Positions 15,908 through 22,236 of a stretch of DNA of 64,000 bases are shown in pieces. The translations under genes and the position numbers were made by a program. Source of the stretch: Pelolinea sp. (GTDB lineage Bacteria > Chloroflexota > Anaerolineae > Anaerolineales > Anaerolineaceae); the NCBI GenBank assembly GCA_012797975.1, contig JAAZOD010000010.1:62001-126000 (forward strand), written 5' to 3'. The notes beneath the pieces were generated by a model, which was not told where the DNA came from, searched no databases, and saw only the letters and a program-made list of their open reading frames with translations. Numbering within the stretch: position 1 is the first letter of the stretch; each line of letters begins with the position of its first letter.

Positions 15908-16930
15908 TCAACCCAATTTCGCGTGATGGCAGGCAACAAAATGCCCCGGCTCCAATTCCTTTAATTTCGGTTCAGTCAGTGAGCACTCCGCACTCGCAAT
16001 CAGGCAGCGCGGATGAAAACGGCAGCCAGAGGGGGGATCGATCGGGTTAGGGATTTCACCTTCGGGCATGGGTTCGGTTCGCCGTTTGCGGGGATTAGGA
16101 ACTGGAACAGCTGCCAGAAGTGCTTTCGTATACGGATGGAGCGGTTTTTGATAAACCTCCTGCACGGTAGCCACCTCGGCTAATTTTCCTAAATATAAAA
16201 TCCCAATTCGGTCGCAAATATACTTGGCAGTTGCCAGATCATGCGTGATGAACAAATATGTCAGATTGAATTCCTTCTTCAATTGCACCATTAGGTCCAG
16301 CAATAAGGCACGTACGCTCACATCCGCCATCGCTACCGGTTCATCTGCCAGCACCAAATCAGGGCGGGTTATCAAGGCACGCGCAATGACCACTCTTTGT
16401 CGCTGCCCACCCGATATTTGATGCGGGTATTTGTTGAAATAATAATTGGCAGGGGTCAATCCAACTTTTTCAAAGATGGATACAACCATGTCGCGATGCT
16501 GATCGGCTATTTCGGGATAGTGAATGAGCAATCCCTGCATCACGGATGTCCCTAACGTCATGCGTGGATTGAGGGAGGCCATTGGATCCTGGAAGATGAC
16601 CTGCATTTTTTGGCGCAGTTTTCGCAATTCTTCCTTTTTTAAAGCAGAGAGATCCATTCCATTAAAAATTACTTTCCCTTCGGTTAACGGTTCGAGGCCG
16701 ATCGACAATCGGCCAATTGTGGTTTTTCCGCTCCCGCTTTCTCCGGCTAATCCAAACGCCTCTCCTCTTTTTACGTTAATCGATACATCGTCTACTGCGC
16801 GGACATAATCAATCCGCCCGGCAAAGATTTGATCGAGCAAGGTCTTTTGAACCGGAAAATATTTTTTCACATTATGCAATTCAAGGATGAAATCATCGCT
16901 CTCTTTGCGGGTTTCCATTGCATTCATCAT
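15908..16930 (-). CDS. Peptide ABC transporter ATPase, OppF/DppF type
   Basis: About 340 residues. Walker A GESGSGKTT, Q-loop FQDPMASLNPR, signature SGGQRQR, Walker B LVLADEP and H-loop FITHDL are all present. The C-terminal OppF-type tail has the Cys-containing motif GCRFHPRC with later Cys residues. The D-loop reads AMADVSV where the family normally has SALDVSV, which is unusual. I set the start at the ATG at 16930; a GTG at 16939 is the alternative. It is the last gene of the five-gene importer operon and pairs with the OppD-type ATPase to power peptide uptake. Confidence 0.92.
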   Translation of the reverse strand: MMNAMETRKESDDFILELHNVKKYFPVQKTLLDQIFAGRIDYVRAVDDVSINVKRGEAFGLAGESGSGKTTIGRLSIGLEPLTEGKVIFNGMDLSALKKEELRKLRQKMQVIFQDPMASLNPRMTLGTSVMQGLLIHYPEIADQHRDMVVSIFEKVGLTPANYYFNKYPHQISGGQRQRVVIARALITRPDLVLADEPVAMADVSVRALLLDLMVQLKKEFNLTYLFITHDLATAKYICDRIGILYLGKLAEVATVQEVYQKPLHPYTKALLAAVPVPNPRKRRTEPMPEGEIPNPIDPPSGCRFHPRCLIASAECSLTEPKLKELEPGHFVACHHAKLG

Positions 16931-16945
16931 ATGATCCACTTTTCT

Positions 16946-17926
16946 TTAACTAGACTGTTCCTGATACAACCAGCAATGCACAGACCAGCCCTCTTCGATT
17001 TCCACCAATAAAGGTTCCCGTTGTGAACAGATGGGCATAGCATGCGGGCAGCGGGGGTGAAACCGACATCCCAAGGGTGGATGTGTAAGGTTGGGCGGTT
17101 CGCCTGGCATTTTATATAAATGTTCATTTGTATCAAAACGAATATTCGGGACAGAAGCCAACAAGCCCTGGGTATAAGGGTGTTTTGGTTCTTCGAAAAT
17201 CTTATAGATATCGCCGATCTCAACCAGATGCCCGGCATACATCACTGCAATGCGATCAGCCATTTCTGCGACAAGGGCGATATTGTGGGTGATCAGCAGT
17301 AAACTCACCCCGAATTCATCTCTAATTTCTCGCAATTGGTCAGCCAGTTTTGCTTCTACAATCACGTCCAGAGAAGTCGTTGCCTCATCTGCTATGATCA
17401 AATCAGCATTCAGGATCAAACCAATCCCGGTCATCACGCGTTGCCGCATTCCTCCAGATAACTGATGTGGATAGCTGTATAACCGCTCTATTCCAATACC
17501 CAATCTTTCGATCATGACCTTCGAACGTTGCAGGGCGGAATCCTCTTTCGTTTGAGGTTCGTGCACCTGGATCGTTTCAATCAGATGTTCATCGACTCGT
17601 TGAACCGGGTTCAGAGAGGTCATGGGGTCTTGGAAGATCATGCTGACATGTCTGCCACGAAAATCGCGCAAATGGTTATAGTCATACTCCATGATATTCT
17701 CACCACGGAAAACAATTTTCCCATTGGATATCTCTCCGGGTGGATCGATCATACGCAGCAGGGCTTTTCCAAGCGTACTTTTTCCACAACCACTTTCACC
17801 GACCAATCCAAGGATTTCACCCTTGTAAATATTGAAATTCACATGATCCACGGCGCTCACCGAACCTATGCGAGTCGGATAGGTCACGGATAAATCCTTG
17901 ATCTCTGCTAAAATTTCTTTTTCCAT
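16946..17926 (-). CDS. Peptide ABC transporter ATPase, OppD/DppD type
   Basis: A 326-residue ATPase with Walker A GESGCGKST, FQDPMTSLNPV, signature LSGGMRQR, Walker B LIIADEATTSLDV and H-loop LITHN. It ends in the OppD C-terminal region with GCRFHPRCPHAMPIC. The LSGGMRQR signature is characteristic of the D-type subunit. The ATG directly abuts the stop of the permease gene (17927), with GGAG inside the end of that gene. This suggests translational coupling. It acts on the cytoplasmic face with the OppF-type partner. Confidence 0.93.
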   Translation of the reverse strand: MEKEILAEIKDLSVTYPTRIGSVSAVDHVNFNIYKGEILGLVGESGCGKSTLGKALLRMIDPPGEISNGKIVFRGENIMEYDYNHLRDFRGRHVSMIFQDPMTSLNPVQRVDEHLIETIQVHEPQTKEDSALQRSKVMIERLGIGIERLYSYPHQLSGGMRQRVMTGIGLILNADLIIADEATTSLDVIVEAKLADQLREIRDEFGVSLLLITHNIALVAEMADRIAVMYAGHLVEIGDIYKIFEEPKHPYTQGLLASVPNIRFDTNEHLYKMPGEPPNLTHPPLGCRFHPRCPHAMPICSQREPLLVEIEEGWSVHCWLYQEQSS

Positions 17927-19183
17927 TTATAACTCCGATAAGCGTGGATTAAGGATCTCCGAAAGACTTTCACCCAGCATACTGAACGCCAGGGTGACCA
18001 AACTGACCATGCCACCGGGGAAGGTGATCAACCACCAGGCACTGCGCAGATAATCTTGCCCACGTGCCAGATCGATGCCCCAATCCGGTGTATCTGGAGG
18101 GAGTCCCAACCCGATAAAACTCAAGCCCGCTTCAGTCAGAATCGCATCGGCAACATTTACAGAAAAAATAATCACAACCGATGGCAACACATTGGGAAAT
18201 ATATATTTGGTCAAAATGGTCATCATGTTTGTTCCAAGACTGCGAGCCGCTTCTACATACAACTCATTCTTCACGGTCAAGGTCTGACCACGAACCACGC
18301 GAAAATAGGTTGGCACATAAATTACAGCGATAGCCACAATAATATTTCCCATGCCAGCACCAAGCACAGAGGCGATGGCAATAGCCAGGATCAAACCCGG
18401 GAATGCATACAAACTATCCATGATCATCGTTAAAAAACGATCGATCTTGCCACCGATAAATCCACTGAAAAGGCCCAGTGGCACACCAATCACAAACGAG
18501 ATAAGCGCCGAACTGAGACCGACGATCAGTGCAATCCTGGTACCCCAAATGATACGACTGAGAATATCTTGTCCAAGCTGGTTGGTTCCCAAAATAAATG
18601 ATTCGGCTTTGCTGCTGCGAATTTCCTCCAGAAATTGGATGCCTGGATAATCTGCCAGAAGATCACCCAGTTCCGATTCGGCCACGATGAATCCATCAAT
18701 CTCTCCCGCTTGCAGAGCGTCCAGCCCTTGCTGGGCAGTTTCATATCGATATCCTCTAGGTTGATACATTAATCCAGCACCCTCTTGCTGGGATTGGGCA
18801 TTTAAAATATCCAGACTGTCGCGAAATGCTTGTGTCGCCTGGCTGCCCATAATGTATCCGATTTTGTTCGAGGCGCCCGCAATATCCTGAAACGAACCCA
18901 CGTTATCGGCAATATTGGTCAACAACATGAATCCCGGGGTTTTTTCACCAGGTTTCAATAATGACGGACCCACTTCTTCTCGCGGGTCATAGGGAGCAAA
19001 CCATTGCGGAAAGATGCCAACCAGGATAATAAATATCAAAAGAATGGCGCTGATCAGAACAAACCACCAATCGCCTTTATACCATTTCCTGGCCAGGAAC
19101 AGCCGTCTTACAAATCCCACTTTGTCCAGTTCAAGCTGCCATTCCGGTACCGAATCATTTTGCTTTTCTTTTTGACTATTCAT
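17927..19183 (-). CDS. Peptide ABC permease, OppC/DppC type, with a large SBP-like insert in the first extracellular loop
   Basis: A 418-residue protein, about 120 longer than typical OppC/DppC. TM1 (about residues 40-58) is followed by WFAPYDPREEVGPSLL, the usual lead-in to the GTDxLGRDxLSR motif. That motif (GTNQLGQDILSR) appears only at about residue 200. The roughly 115 residues between look like one lobe of a family 3 solute-binding protein: DIAGASNKIGYIMGS, then GLDALQAGEIDGFIVAESELGDLLADYPG-type text. The remaining five TM helices and the EAA loop (EAARSLGTNMMTILTKYIFPN) are normal. An AGGA seven bases before the ATG at 19183 supports that start. See the findings. Confidence 0.9.
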   Translation of the reverse strand: MNSQKEKQNDSVPEWQLELDKVGFVRRLFLARKWYKGDWWFVLISAILLIFIILVGIFPQWFAPYDPREEVGPSLLKPGEKTPGFMLLTNIADNVGSFQDIAGASNKIGYIMGSQATQAFRDSLDILNAQSQQEGAGLMYQPRGYRYETAQQGLDALQAGEIDGFIVAESELGDLLADYPGIQFLEEIRSSKAESFILGTNQLGQDILSRIIWGTRIALIVGLSSALISFVIGVPLGLFSGFIGGKIDRFLTMIMDSLYAFPGLILAIAIASVLGAGMGNIIVAIAVIYVPTYFRVVRGQTLTVKNELYVEAARSLGTNMMTILTKYIFPNVLPSVVIIFSVNVADAILTEAGLSFIGLGLPPDTPDWGIDLARGQDYLRSAWWLITFPGGMVSLVTLAFSMLGESLSEILNPRLSEL

Positions 19184-19211
19184 TTCCAAATCCTAATTTT
19201 CTATTTTGAAA

Positions 19212-20234
19212 TCAGTAACGAATTCTCGGATCCACGAGTGCATATAAAATATCCATCACCAATGAAATGATTGCCACAAAAAAAGCAAAAACACCAATGG
19301 TGGATTGAACGGCAGTGTAATCGCGAAGGGCGATCCGATCGACCAGATAGCGCCCCATTCCCGGCCATGAAAATGTCGTTTCGGTTAAAACTGCACCGGC
19401 AATCAATAATGCCATCTGCAAACCGATCATGGTTAATATGGGAATGAATGTGTTGCGTAAAGAATGCTTGTAAATCAACTGTGTTTCGGAAATGCCGCGT
19501 GCCCTACCAGCCGTAATAAAATCTGACTTGATCATCTCGATCATATTCACGCGGGTTAACCGGATGAAAACACCCGTGAGGGATAATCCTAAAGTGAGAG
19601 ATGGCAAGATCAAATGAAGCAAGGTTGACTTTAGCGCTGCCCAATTCTGAGACAGGATTGAATCAATGATATAAAAATTTGTTTTTGACTCAAAGGTTGT
19701 CAATAAAATCGGATCCATTCTTCCCGAAAGTGGCAATAGATTCAGACGTACTCCAAAAATTATTTGAAAAATAAGTCCTAAAAAGAATATTGGAATGGAA
19801 TAAATAAATATACTGAACAAACGGATCCCGTAATCGACCGGTTTTTTCCTATTTTTCGCTGAGAATGCACCCAAACCAATACCCAGCGCAACCGCGATAA
19901 GCATTGCGGGAATGCTAAGTTCCAATGTTGCCGGAAGTTTTTCCCCTAATTCCTCACGGATCGGTCTTTCGCCCCTGGTCAACGCATTTCCGAAATTGAA
20001 AGTGAGCATATCTTTTAAATAATTCCCATATTGAACAAGAATTGGGTCATTCAAACCAAGGCGTTCCCGGAGACGATCTGCCTGTTCTTCGCTAACCCGC
20101 GGTCCAAGCTGCGAACGAATTGGATCGCCCGGCAGCACTCGCATGATGAAAAAAACGAGTGTAATCATGATGAGGACCATGGGGATGGTCAAAAGGATGC
20201 GGGTGACCAGAAATTTTTTCAATGATGACGACAT
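19212..20234 (-). CDS. Peptide ABC permease, OppB/DppB type
   Basis: A 340-residue inner-membrane permease with six TM helices. The N-terminus (RILLTIPMVLIMITLVFFIMRVLPGDP) is typical of OppB/DppB. So are the loop segment SEEQADRLRERLGLNDPILVQYGNYL, the EAA motif GRARGISETQLIYKHSLRNTFIP and the PGMGRYL segment near the end. No unusual insert is seen here, in contrast to the partner permease. The start at 20234 has a GGAG sequence at suitable distance. A hairpin at 20304-20327 lies between this gene and the binding-protein gene. Confidence 0.94.
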   Translation of the reverse strand: MSSSLKKFLVTRILLTIPMVLIMITLVFFIMRVLPGDPIRSQLGPRVSEEQADRLRERLGLNDPILVQYGNYLKDMLTFNFGNALTRGERPIREELGEKLPATLELSIPAMLIAVALGIGLGAFSAKNRKKPVDYGIRLFSIFIYSIPIFFLGLIFQIIFGVRLNLLPLSGRMDPILLTTFESKTNFYIIDSILSQNWAALKSTLLHLILPSLTLGLSLTGVFIRLTRVNMIEMIKSDFITAGRARGISETQLIYKHSLRNTFIPILTMIGLQMALLIAGAVLTETTFSWPGMGRYLVDRIALRDYTAVQSTIGVFAFFVAIISLVMDILYALVDPRIRY

Positions 20235-20348: not shown

Positions 20349-22019
20349 CTACTCAGCAGTATCCAGTACATAGGTGTGATTGAAAACCATGTACCGAAGC
20401 GAAGGTGCATCTACCTTCATTACCGTCAAACCTTCAATGCTCGAAAGACGTGTGGATTCAACCGGACCTAGAGTGCGCCAAGCGATGTCAATTTCGCCTT
20501 TTTCGACAGCATTGCCCAGGGTGGTGGGATCTGCGAAATACTTGATGATGACATTCTTGATCTTTGGAGCATCTTCTCCAGTGTAGTAAGGATTGGCTTC
20601 CAAAACGAGCTGTTCACCAGGTACATTCGACACCATCCGATAGGCGCCGATCCCATCTAATGTTTCCGGATAGGCATTGATCGCATCCATCGTGAACGTA
20701 TTGGGATTGACCGGAACAAATGGTGCAGTAGCCGCAAGTGCATTGAAGAAGCCGATCGGACTGTTCAGATGATAGACAACGGTTAAATCATCCGGTGCTT
20801 CGACGCTTTGTACATAAACCTGAACCAAGCCCGAAACCTGACCTTCCAACGCGTTCAAACGTTCCCATGAATATACATAATCTTGGGCAGTGAGAGGAGT
20901 TCCATCTGCGAACTTCAATCCTTCTTTGAGTGTGAAGGTATACGTTAATCCACCATCACTGATCACAGGGAAATCTGCTGCCGCACCAGGGACAAGTTCA
21001 GTCGTTCCGGGTGTATAGCTCATTAAAGCGGTTCCTGTGTTTTTAATGATTTCCCAGTCATGGGTTGCATAAGCATCATTGGCATCCAGACTGTTTACCT
21101 CATCCGTAGTTCCAATGATGATGGTATCAGGGCTGCCCGAAGCCGGGACAGCTTCATCGGTGAAGCTCAGAACGTTGTAATTGAACTCGAATGATCCACC
21201 GATCGCGACCCCTTCAATTCCTTTCCGGAACGTAATGAATTCAGGTTCCCAGAATAAAGGAATGGTCGGAACATCTTCGGCATACAATTCACCGATTTGT
21301 TGATACAAATCTTCACGATCTGCAGGATCGGTAGCGGTAGCAGCCGAAGTCAACAGTGCATCCATTTCAGGATTGCAGTAGTTCACACCATTATCAGGTG
21401 ACTGCAAGCAAGAAGCAAACGGGGTCAACCAGTTGTCAGGATCCGTGAAATCCGGGAACCAACCCAACATAAAGAAGGGCGCTTCACCGGCTACGAAACC
21501 ATCAACATATTCTGCCCAGTTTTCGGATTTTAAATTAACTACAATCATTCCGGTTTCTTCAAGCTGTTCCTTAATAACCTGCATTACATCAGCTGTCGTG
21601 GTTCCATAATGTTCTGGCGGATACCAGAGATCGAATACAAAGGGATTCTCTTCCGAATAACCGGCGTCTTGAAGCAACTGTTTAGAAAGCTCCAAATCCC
21701 GCGTGCCATATTTATCGAGAAATGGTTCCGTTGCATACGGATAGCTTGGGGGAACCATTCCATAGGCAGGTGTATTACGACCTTCAAATACACGATCAAC
21801 AATAACCTCCCGGTCGATCGCGGCTGCAATGGCCTGTCGTAATTCTTTCGTCCACAAAGGACCAGCTGAAGTCTCTGCGGTTGTTTCTTCCGAAGTTCCT
21901 TCAGTAGATGGCGCTGCTTCTGTGGGGGTTTCAGTAGTGGCTGCAGGAGCACATGCCACTGCAAGCAAAGCTACCAGTAAAAGCAGTGCCATCATTTTTA
22001 ATGTTTTTGGTACACTCAT
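20349..22019 (-). CDS. Circularly permuted family 5 peptide-binding lipoprotein
   Basis: A 556-residue lipoprotein (lipobox Cys at about residue 23; linker rich in Thr/Glu/Ala). Every block of the OppA/DppA fold (SBP family 5) is present, but in rotated order. ELRQAIAAAIDRE (59-71), WYPPEHYGTTTADVMQ, LGWFPDFTDPDNW and the closing FEFNYNVLSF (about 280) form the family's C-terminal half and come first. A short linker leads to IIIGTTDEVNSLDANDAY (300-317), then FTLKEG...FADGTPLTAQDY (362-381) and finally LRYMVFNH (540-547), which normally sits just before the ELRQA block. I chose the ATG at 22019 because GGAAGGAG precedes it. It is the first gene of the importer operon. Confidence 0.9.
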   Translation of the reverse strand: MSVPKTLKMMALLLLVALLAVACAPAATTETPTEAAPSTEGTSEETTAETSAGPLWTKELRQAIAAAIDREVIVDRVFEGRNTPAYGMVPPSYPYATEPFLDKYGTRDLELSKQLLQDAGYSEENPFVFDLWYPPEHYGTTTADVMQVIKEQLEETGMIVVNLKSENWAEYVDGFVAGEAPFFMLGWFPDFTDPDNWLTPFASCLQSPDNGVNYCNPEMDALLTSAATATDPADREDLYQQIGELYAEDVPTIPLFWEPEFITFRKGIEGVAIGGSFEFNYNVLSFTDEAVPASGSPDTIIIGTTDEVNSLDANDAYATHDWEIIKNTGTALMSYTPGTTELVPGAAADFPVISDGGLTYTFTLKEGLKFADGTPLTAQDYVYSWERLNALEGQVSGLVQVYVQSVEAPDDLTVVYHLNSPIGFFNALAATAPFVPVNPNTFTMDAINAYPETLDGIGAYRMVSNVPGEQLVLEANPYYTGEDAPKIKNVIIKYFADPTTLGNAVEKGEIDIAWRTLGPVESTRLSSIEGLTVMKVDAPSLRYMVFNHTYVLDTAE

Positions 22020-22236
22020 TCTTTCTCCTTCCTTTTTTTCATTCAATTTTGTTGGTCAACAGTTTCTATCAATACTTTGGCAAAACACCTCCTCTGTCAA
22101 AATTTAAACGTTAATTTTATCATATTTAATGATGACATTTATCCATTATGATTTCCTTTATTTATTATGCAATTGGACAGCAGACGGAATTTGGAATACG
22201 CCTACTGTTAAATTCACATTTCTTTCTCTTAAAACT
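22020..22236. other. Upstream region of the peptide-transport operon
   Basis: About 215 nt, AT-rich. A possible minus-strand promoter is TTGCAT with CATAAT about 16 nt downstream (near 22140-22175), but the match is weak. I see no riboswitch or dyad in it. Confidence 0.3.

Follow-up and report, generated by a model that had tools for sequence, protein, structure and literature searches.

On its minus strand, the 64,000-nucleotide stretch of Pelolinea sp. DNA that we analyzed (the window) encodes a family 5 solute-binding protein whose two halves stand in exchanged order. The evidence supports the view that this family 5 fold has been circularly permuted, its chain being opened where it crosses between the lobes, and that the rearrangement is real, conserved and under selection. 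The open reading frame at 20349-22046 (-) spans 565 amino acids and opens at TTG; because AAGGAG lies five bases upstream of an ATG at 22019, we favor that ATG, as did an earlier sequence-only reading, and place the gene at 20349..22019 (-). The full-length 565-aa protein scores 265.2 bits against the Pfam profile SBP_bac_5 (PF00496; curated cut-off 32.4), the sole Pfam family found in it at E 0.001, and either half passes alone: searched separately, residues 59-215 match profile positions 208-365 (108.7 bits) and residues 350-558 match positions 1-209 (160.5 bits). Together, the halves tile the profile with a single break at 208/209. An in-order match to positions 1-368 along the chain fails, the order being 208-365 and then 1-209. 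A second profile, built from nine normal-order relatives, aligned residues 66-286 to its positions 327-547 (223 bits) and residues 301-558 to positions 59-321 (249 bits). These scores exclude a chance origin of the reversed halves, and the profile search, which the sequence-only reading had proposed as a check on the rotated block order it described, places the halves in permuted rather than normal order. The exchanged segments are complete, belong to one family and have non-permuted homologs, the features by which a natural circular permutation is recognized.

Joining the two ends of the window protein gives back a normal family 5 sequence. In normal relatives, a strand of the LRYMVFN type is followed after about ten residues by VRQAI; across this joint, the normal-order relative L028 reads IRYIVFN-VKMKPFDDPK-VRQAIAYAVNR. 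At the same place in the window protein, LRYMVFNHTYVLDTAE forms the C-terminus and GPLWTKELRQAIAAAIDR the mature N-terminus, so that in type A, as we term this protein and its permuted orthologs, the cut falls inside those roughly ten residues. Both the restoration of a normal sequence and a break in the hinge connection between the lobes had been put forward from the sequence alone, and both agree with this alignment. Set against solved chains, the N-half ends at about 254-265 (8efz, 5isu) and the C-half starts at 275 (1dpp). We take the joint to be the crossover from domain I to domain III, with domain borders as in OppA, and assume that the old termini both lie in domain I, as in OppA.

The translation of the type A gene begins with a signal peptide (21951..22019 (-)) ending in a lipobox-like ...LLAVAC, whose cysteine is residue 32 of the 565-aa frame. 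A low-complexity linker rich in T, E, P and A (21864..21950 (-), residues 33-61; model pLDDT <50 at residues 28-60) would connect the lipid anchor to the fold. By their Pfam matches, the original C-terminal half now comes first (21159..21863 (-), residues 62-296) and the original N-terminal half last (20373..21128 (-), residues 307-558); between them, a new linker containing PASGSPD bridges the former C-terminus and the former mature N-terminus (21129..21158 (-), residues ~297-306). The protein closes with a new C-terminal tail past the LRYMVFN strand (20349..20372 (-) including the stop codon, residues 559-565). By regular expression, a lipobox-like cysteine occurs in 20 of the 21 full-length type A proteins, which agrees with the lipoprotein leader proposed earlier. 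The type A protein at L052:4680-6494 is without a lipobox, and its N-terminus resembles a LysM wall-binding repeat by eye; Pfam reports no LysM there at E 0.01.

The permuted order is widely conserved. With one genome taken per species, we found 23 loci, 20 of them permuted and sharing 68-91% identity; the other three are a normal-order gene (L059) and two distant partial matches (L060, L061). Four isolates carry the permuted order, namely Pelolinea submarina, whose record is titled a complete chromosome, Longilinea arvoryzae, Ornatilinea apprima and Anaerolinea thermolimosa; the idea that type A is private to the source genus is thereby rejected. The window genome is a draft in 35 contigs, as are those of many relatives, and a collapsed tandem pair or a circular mis-join could in principle mimic a permutation. 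However, the four isolates and 20 of the 23 records repeat the order, the type A sequences group in a single clade, and start, leader and stop are all clean. Since orthologs in isolate genomes keep the permuted order, the check that the sequence-only reading had suggested, misassembly is ruled out, and we give an artefact practically no probability. A type A gene is present in 16 of the 101 genomes closest to the window, a count that includes the window's own genome; contig ends cut two of these genes, and a third is divided between two frames. In UBA4781, the gene lies in two overlapping frames (L017:1498-3133 and L047:4156-5791), reflecting either a sequencing error or a decayed copy.

Both halves of the protein are under purifying selection. 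Within the halves, dN/dS is 0.025-0.051 among four close relatives; dS is saturated in every pair except L010/L011, where it is 0.39-0.42 and dN/dS is 0.047 and 0.051. Asp199 is invariant in 21 of 21 type A proteins and aligns with the aspartate of GDNGDPDNF in DppA, presumably the ligand anchor there; its invariance would fit a peptide or amine ligand. We considered whether the gene has been retained as something other than an importer subunit, a pseudogene or a sensor that has ceased to bind. The importer function of the permuted protein is predicted from sequence, and one relative (L017/L047) is broken in two frames, as decay would predict. Against this stand a dN/dS of about 0.05 in the single unsaturated pair, many invariant residues and an intact operon, and we regard decay as having a small chance of being correct.

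The type A gene heads a full importer operon, as had been read from the sequence. It is followed on the same strand by genes for a DppB-type permease (19212..20234 (-); Pfam BPD_transp_1) and a DppC-type permease (17927..19189 (-); OppC_N and BPD_transp_1), both assigned with the help of orthologs, and for DppD-type (16946..17926 (-)) and DppF-type (15908..16939 (-)) ATPases, each matching ABC_tran and oligo_HPY and named by position and likeness. The arrangement SBP-DppB-DppC-DppD-DppF in one direction recurs in 10 of 10 permuted loci examined. The same five-gene operon is headed by the normal-order proteins L025 (in locus L093), L026 (L092) and L028 (L094), and its first part is present at L059, after which the contig ends. 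L025, L026 and L028 are the nearest normal-order proteins, about 39-47% identical to type A per half, with their halves unswapped. Because the operon is equal in permuted and normal-order loci, only the binding protein was rearranged, and a rearrangement inside an orthologous operon yields natural matched pairs. The DppC-type permease carries, by eye, about 110 extra residues between OppC_N (first helix) and BPD_transp_1, a region without any Pfam family below E 0.1 (matches at E 0.1-0.15 only). In the normal-order operons, DppC measures 425 aa in L093 and 383 aa in L092 and L094.

An AlphaFold model of type A, built with 21 orthologs, reached middling confidence (mean pLDDT 77, pTM 0.75). Residues 305-550 of this model align with the N-terminal half of 1uqw (Z 20.7, rmsd 2.6, 232 residues), while the likeness of the C-half comes from sequence comparison, residues 63-283 corresponding to DppA 275-494. 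Sequential structure aligners matched one half of the model and missed the other, as expected for a permuted chain. A model of type B, another permuted protein described below, scored pLDDT 89.9 and pTM 0.84 (24 sequences), and its residues 63-445 match residues 149-536 of Yersinia DppA 5f1q (Z 33.1, rmsd 1.7, 381 residues). Among the 60 of 101 solved-chain rows listed, the best stretch of each chain lies where normal order predicts; each chain has a single stretch in this table, 8upi being the one chain for which both were observed. The Foldseek and VIA lists mostly report one contiguous part per model, so families absent from these lists may still occur.

Overall, type A resembles DppA/OppA (SBP_bac_5, PF00496, cluster C) in sequence family, in its DppBCDF-type operon, in an aligned GDxxDPDN-type aspartate motif and probably, as far as modelled, in the two-lobed fold. 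Unlike DppA/OppA, its chain is rotated at profile position 208/209 and its anchor enters the normally C-terminal half. We consider it very probable that type A is a membrane-tethered binding protein of a Dpp/Opp-type ABC importer whose family 5 (cluster C) fold was cut and rejoined.

Natural permutation of a binding protein is already known as a kind, since TpMglB-2 (Tp0684) of Treponema pallidum, a glucose-binding lipoprotein of cluster B, has been published as such (PMC4990184). Like type A, TpMglB-2 is a permuted, tethered ABC binding lipoprotein; it keeps a two-lobed fold and has homologs in treponemes and Gram-positives (PMC4990184). It differs from type A in belonging to the cluster B sugar class, in breaking elsewhere, in having a poorly conserved moved part, and in needing a fourth cross-over (PMC4990184), where type A instead has one connection cut. 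The authors propose the name 'Type Ic/Cluster Bc' and ask whether tethering favored the permutation, a question that they leave open (PMC4990184). SBP_bac_5 being its only Pfam family at the threshold given above, type A falls outside this TpMglB-2-like class. Our search of the open papers in PMC found no report of a natural permuted family 5 protein; the statement in the sequence-only reading that none had been described therefore stands within that literature, qualified by the published permutation in another class of binding protein (PMC4990184).

Going beyond that reading, we find that the permutation is one of several. Matches of about 28-32% identity that run straight across the junction revealed other permuted architectures. 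With a junction profile of 19 rows (A1), at least 150 matches cross the junction without a stop, in at least 145 of 396 genomes of the source class, Anaerolineae. All 30 loci retrieved from these matches are permuted by profile order, the window gene (L116) among them; for A1 matches beyond the 30, order is inferred from junction crossing. Of 38 class genomes that had scored in the intermediate range, re-examination added 26 to those with permuted loci (counting L246, whose second segment is weak and lies at a contig end); two others showed normal-order loci (L268, and L269 as an N-terminal part), and ten gave no clear result. The junction searches point to permuted family 5 proteins in at least 171 of the 396 genomes.

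Genome-level sampling covered Chloroflexota and Pseudomonadota. A strong junction-spanning match (E 1.2e-64 or better) was found in 40 of 301 genomes drawn from Chloroflexota, the first row below these being a single half at E 1.7e-37; a further four genomes have type D, including one gene broken at its start (L146), and one has type G. Across 299 Pseudomonadota genomes, none of the matches listed crosses the whole junction without a stop, although rare permuted cases could escape this count, which scored just the top candidates per genome. Of the matches listed there, only L136 and L137 span the junction, and both were rejected as tandem normal genes with stops between. Each pairs complete normal-order family 5 genes in head-to-tail orientation, with about 50-90 bases separating them; a duplication-fusion would need such an arrangement as its starting point.

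Junction searches of plasmids listed 20 of 1474 and 20 of 2294 matching records. Among the rows listed with at least 80% query cover, OY725879.1 (L231) is permuted and CP042358.1 (L232) normal; the lower-ranked L233 and L234 are also in normal order. Whole-protein plasmid searches (25 rows listed each) returned two-piece joined matches only, from which order is not readable. The permuted protein of OY725879.1 (L231:2538-4328 (+)), from Subdoligranulum variabile of the Bacillota, matches profile positions 180-552 and then 59-176; it is OppA-like with a Ser/Ala-rich tail, and its nearest normal relatives are about 45-47% identical. A restriction of permutation to Chloroflexota is rejected by this protein. 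Type E (852-861 aa; L094:1019-3577 (-), L096:2513-5098 (-)), with many homologs in 121 genomes of the source order, probably represents a further permuted family 5 protein that has expanded strongly; the assignment is based on two segments (prob 99.5 and 96.4), and type E was omitted from the trees. An FlgD-Ig-like domain at its C-terminus is hinted at by E 0.02-0.09.

Permuted family 5 proteins break in five clear regions and a weaker sixth, numbered here along a profile of normal proteins that is 561 positions long. The clear breaks fall at ~170-181 (type B and L231), ~206-225 (type H; L258, L259), ~302-326 (types A and C, L241, L244, L267), ~394-401 (type D, L147-L149; D2, L261, L263) and ~441-445 (type G; L239), and the weaker one, at ~260, is that of type E, from its two segments only. 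Types B-H share family and principle with type A and belong to other subfamilies; their break regions differ from that of type A except in type C, L241, L244 and L267. Types A and C thus have the same joint in different subfamilies.

For phylogenetic trees, we restored permuted chains to normal order in silico and placed them with normal ones; eight distant or partial normal rows were removed before order changes were counted. In a FastTree analysis of 122 rows, including 22 randomly drawn type B rows, types A, B, C and D each form one clade adjoining normal-order proteins, with support of only 0.712 beside type D. An IQ-TREE analysis of 75 rows (8 of 21 type A, 11 of 22 type B and 44 of 64 normal rows) contains five order changes, all forced by well-supported branches, and type A forms one clade adjoining the normal-order pair L025 and L059 (100/100). 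A 79-row tree, from which 14 further permuted rows were dropped and to which 18 of 26 later finds were added, shows ten order changes, at least seven of them forced. In these counts, gain and reversal are indistinguishable, although reverting to normal order would also be a permutation. Despite its type A joint, L267 groups with the normal-order L025 and L059 (96/79, not a strong branch). By these sequence trees, type A is nested among normal-order proteins and is one of several independent permutations in Chloroflexota.

Half-trees, cut at the type A joint, place L025 and L059 as the sister of type A in both halves (0.996, 0.936), and they also agree in placing L231 with L235, L236 and their kin. 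The C-half tree keeps type C together, whereas the N-half tree splits it (0.524), in disagreement with the 75-row tree, and the nearest normal row of type D differs between the half-trees, with weak support (0.249, 0.746). These trees bear on whether type A arose from one duplicated gene or by fusion of half-genes from different parents. No duplicate intermediate is known, as a two-parent origin would have it, and such an origin was considered by the authors of TpMglB-2 for part of their protein (PMC4990184). However, normal-order relatives share the operon, and both half-trees return the same sister pair; because they agree, the already slim chance that we had given to two parents shrinks further, to a very remote one.

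Like the sequence-only reading, we infer that a single parent gene was duplicated and fused. A tandem duplication of the gene would have been followed by fusion and by trimming to leader, C-half and N-half. The new linker, PASG-PDTIIIG, resembles the mature start of the normal-order L028, PSGTIIIG, as expected from fusing a C-terminus to the mature N-terminus of a second copy. In the resulting protein, a short loop would now bridge the old termini, only one of the two inter-lobe connections would remain, and the lipid anchor would lead through a linker of about 30 residues into domain III instead of domain I. Type A would still close round its ligand, which is probably a peptide or an amine related to one, and deliver it to the cognate DppBCDF.

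Anchoring by long linkers is common to both orders. Scored by regular expression, all 8 type C proteins have a lipobox-like cysteine, as do 51 of 57 in type B, 1 of 3 in type D and 44 of 54 normal-order proteins of Chloroflexota, against 2 of 15 from Pseudomonadota. The leader of L147 (type D) appears Tat-like by eye. Median linkers measure 36.5 residues in type A, 35.5 in type C and 56 in type B, compared with 39 in the normal-order Chloroflexota proteins; linkers being similar in both orders, permutation did not clearly lengthen them. Long, flexible linkers, present with either order, may leave the place of the anchor uncritical, which may explain the recurrence of permutation in Chloroflexota.

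Alternatively, permutation could be adaptive, a relocated anchor or a cut hinge strand altering how tethered binding proteins open, dock or capture their ligands. Five order changes on one tree and ten on the larger one, of which five and seven are forced, speak for such an advantage, as do the break of types A and C at the same crossover and the tethering idea raised for TpMglB-2 (PMC4990184). On the other hand, the differing break regions send the anchor to several domains, and normal-order lipoproteins of Chloroflexota have linkers of similar length, so we think adaptation possible but unlikely. Slightly less doubtful, though still tentative, is the broader reading that Chloroflexota family 5 lipoproteins undergo recurrent, perhaps selected permutation, with 7-10 changes in 5-6 break regions, at least two of them at the same inter-lobe joint, the anchor moving between lobes and the importer unchanged.

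Within one family and one phylum, permutation has been repeated at different joints, in one case within an otherwise unchanged operon for which normal-order sisters are available. A practical caution follows, that sequential profiles and structure aligners read permuted proteins as fragments. With the matched pairs, one can ask whether closing depends on the second hinge strand, whether delivery to the permease depends on which lobe bears the lipid anchor, and whether permutation is favored by tethering, as raised for TpMglB-2 (PMC4990184). If permutation is adaptive, anchor position and hinge connectivity would be tunable traits of ABC importers.
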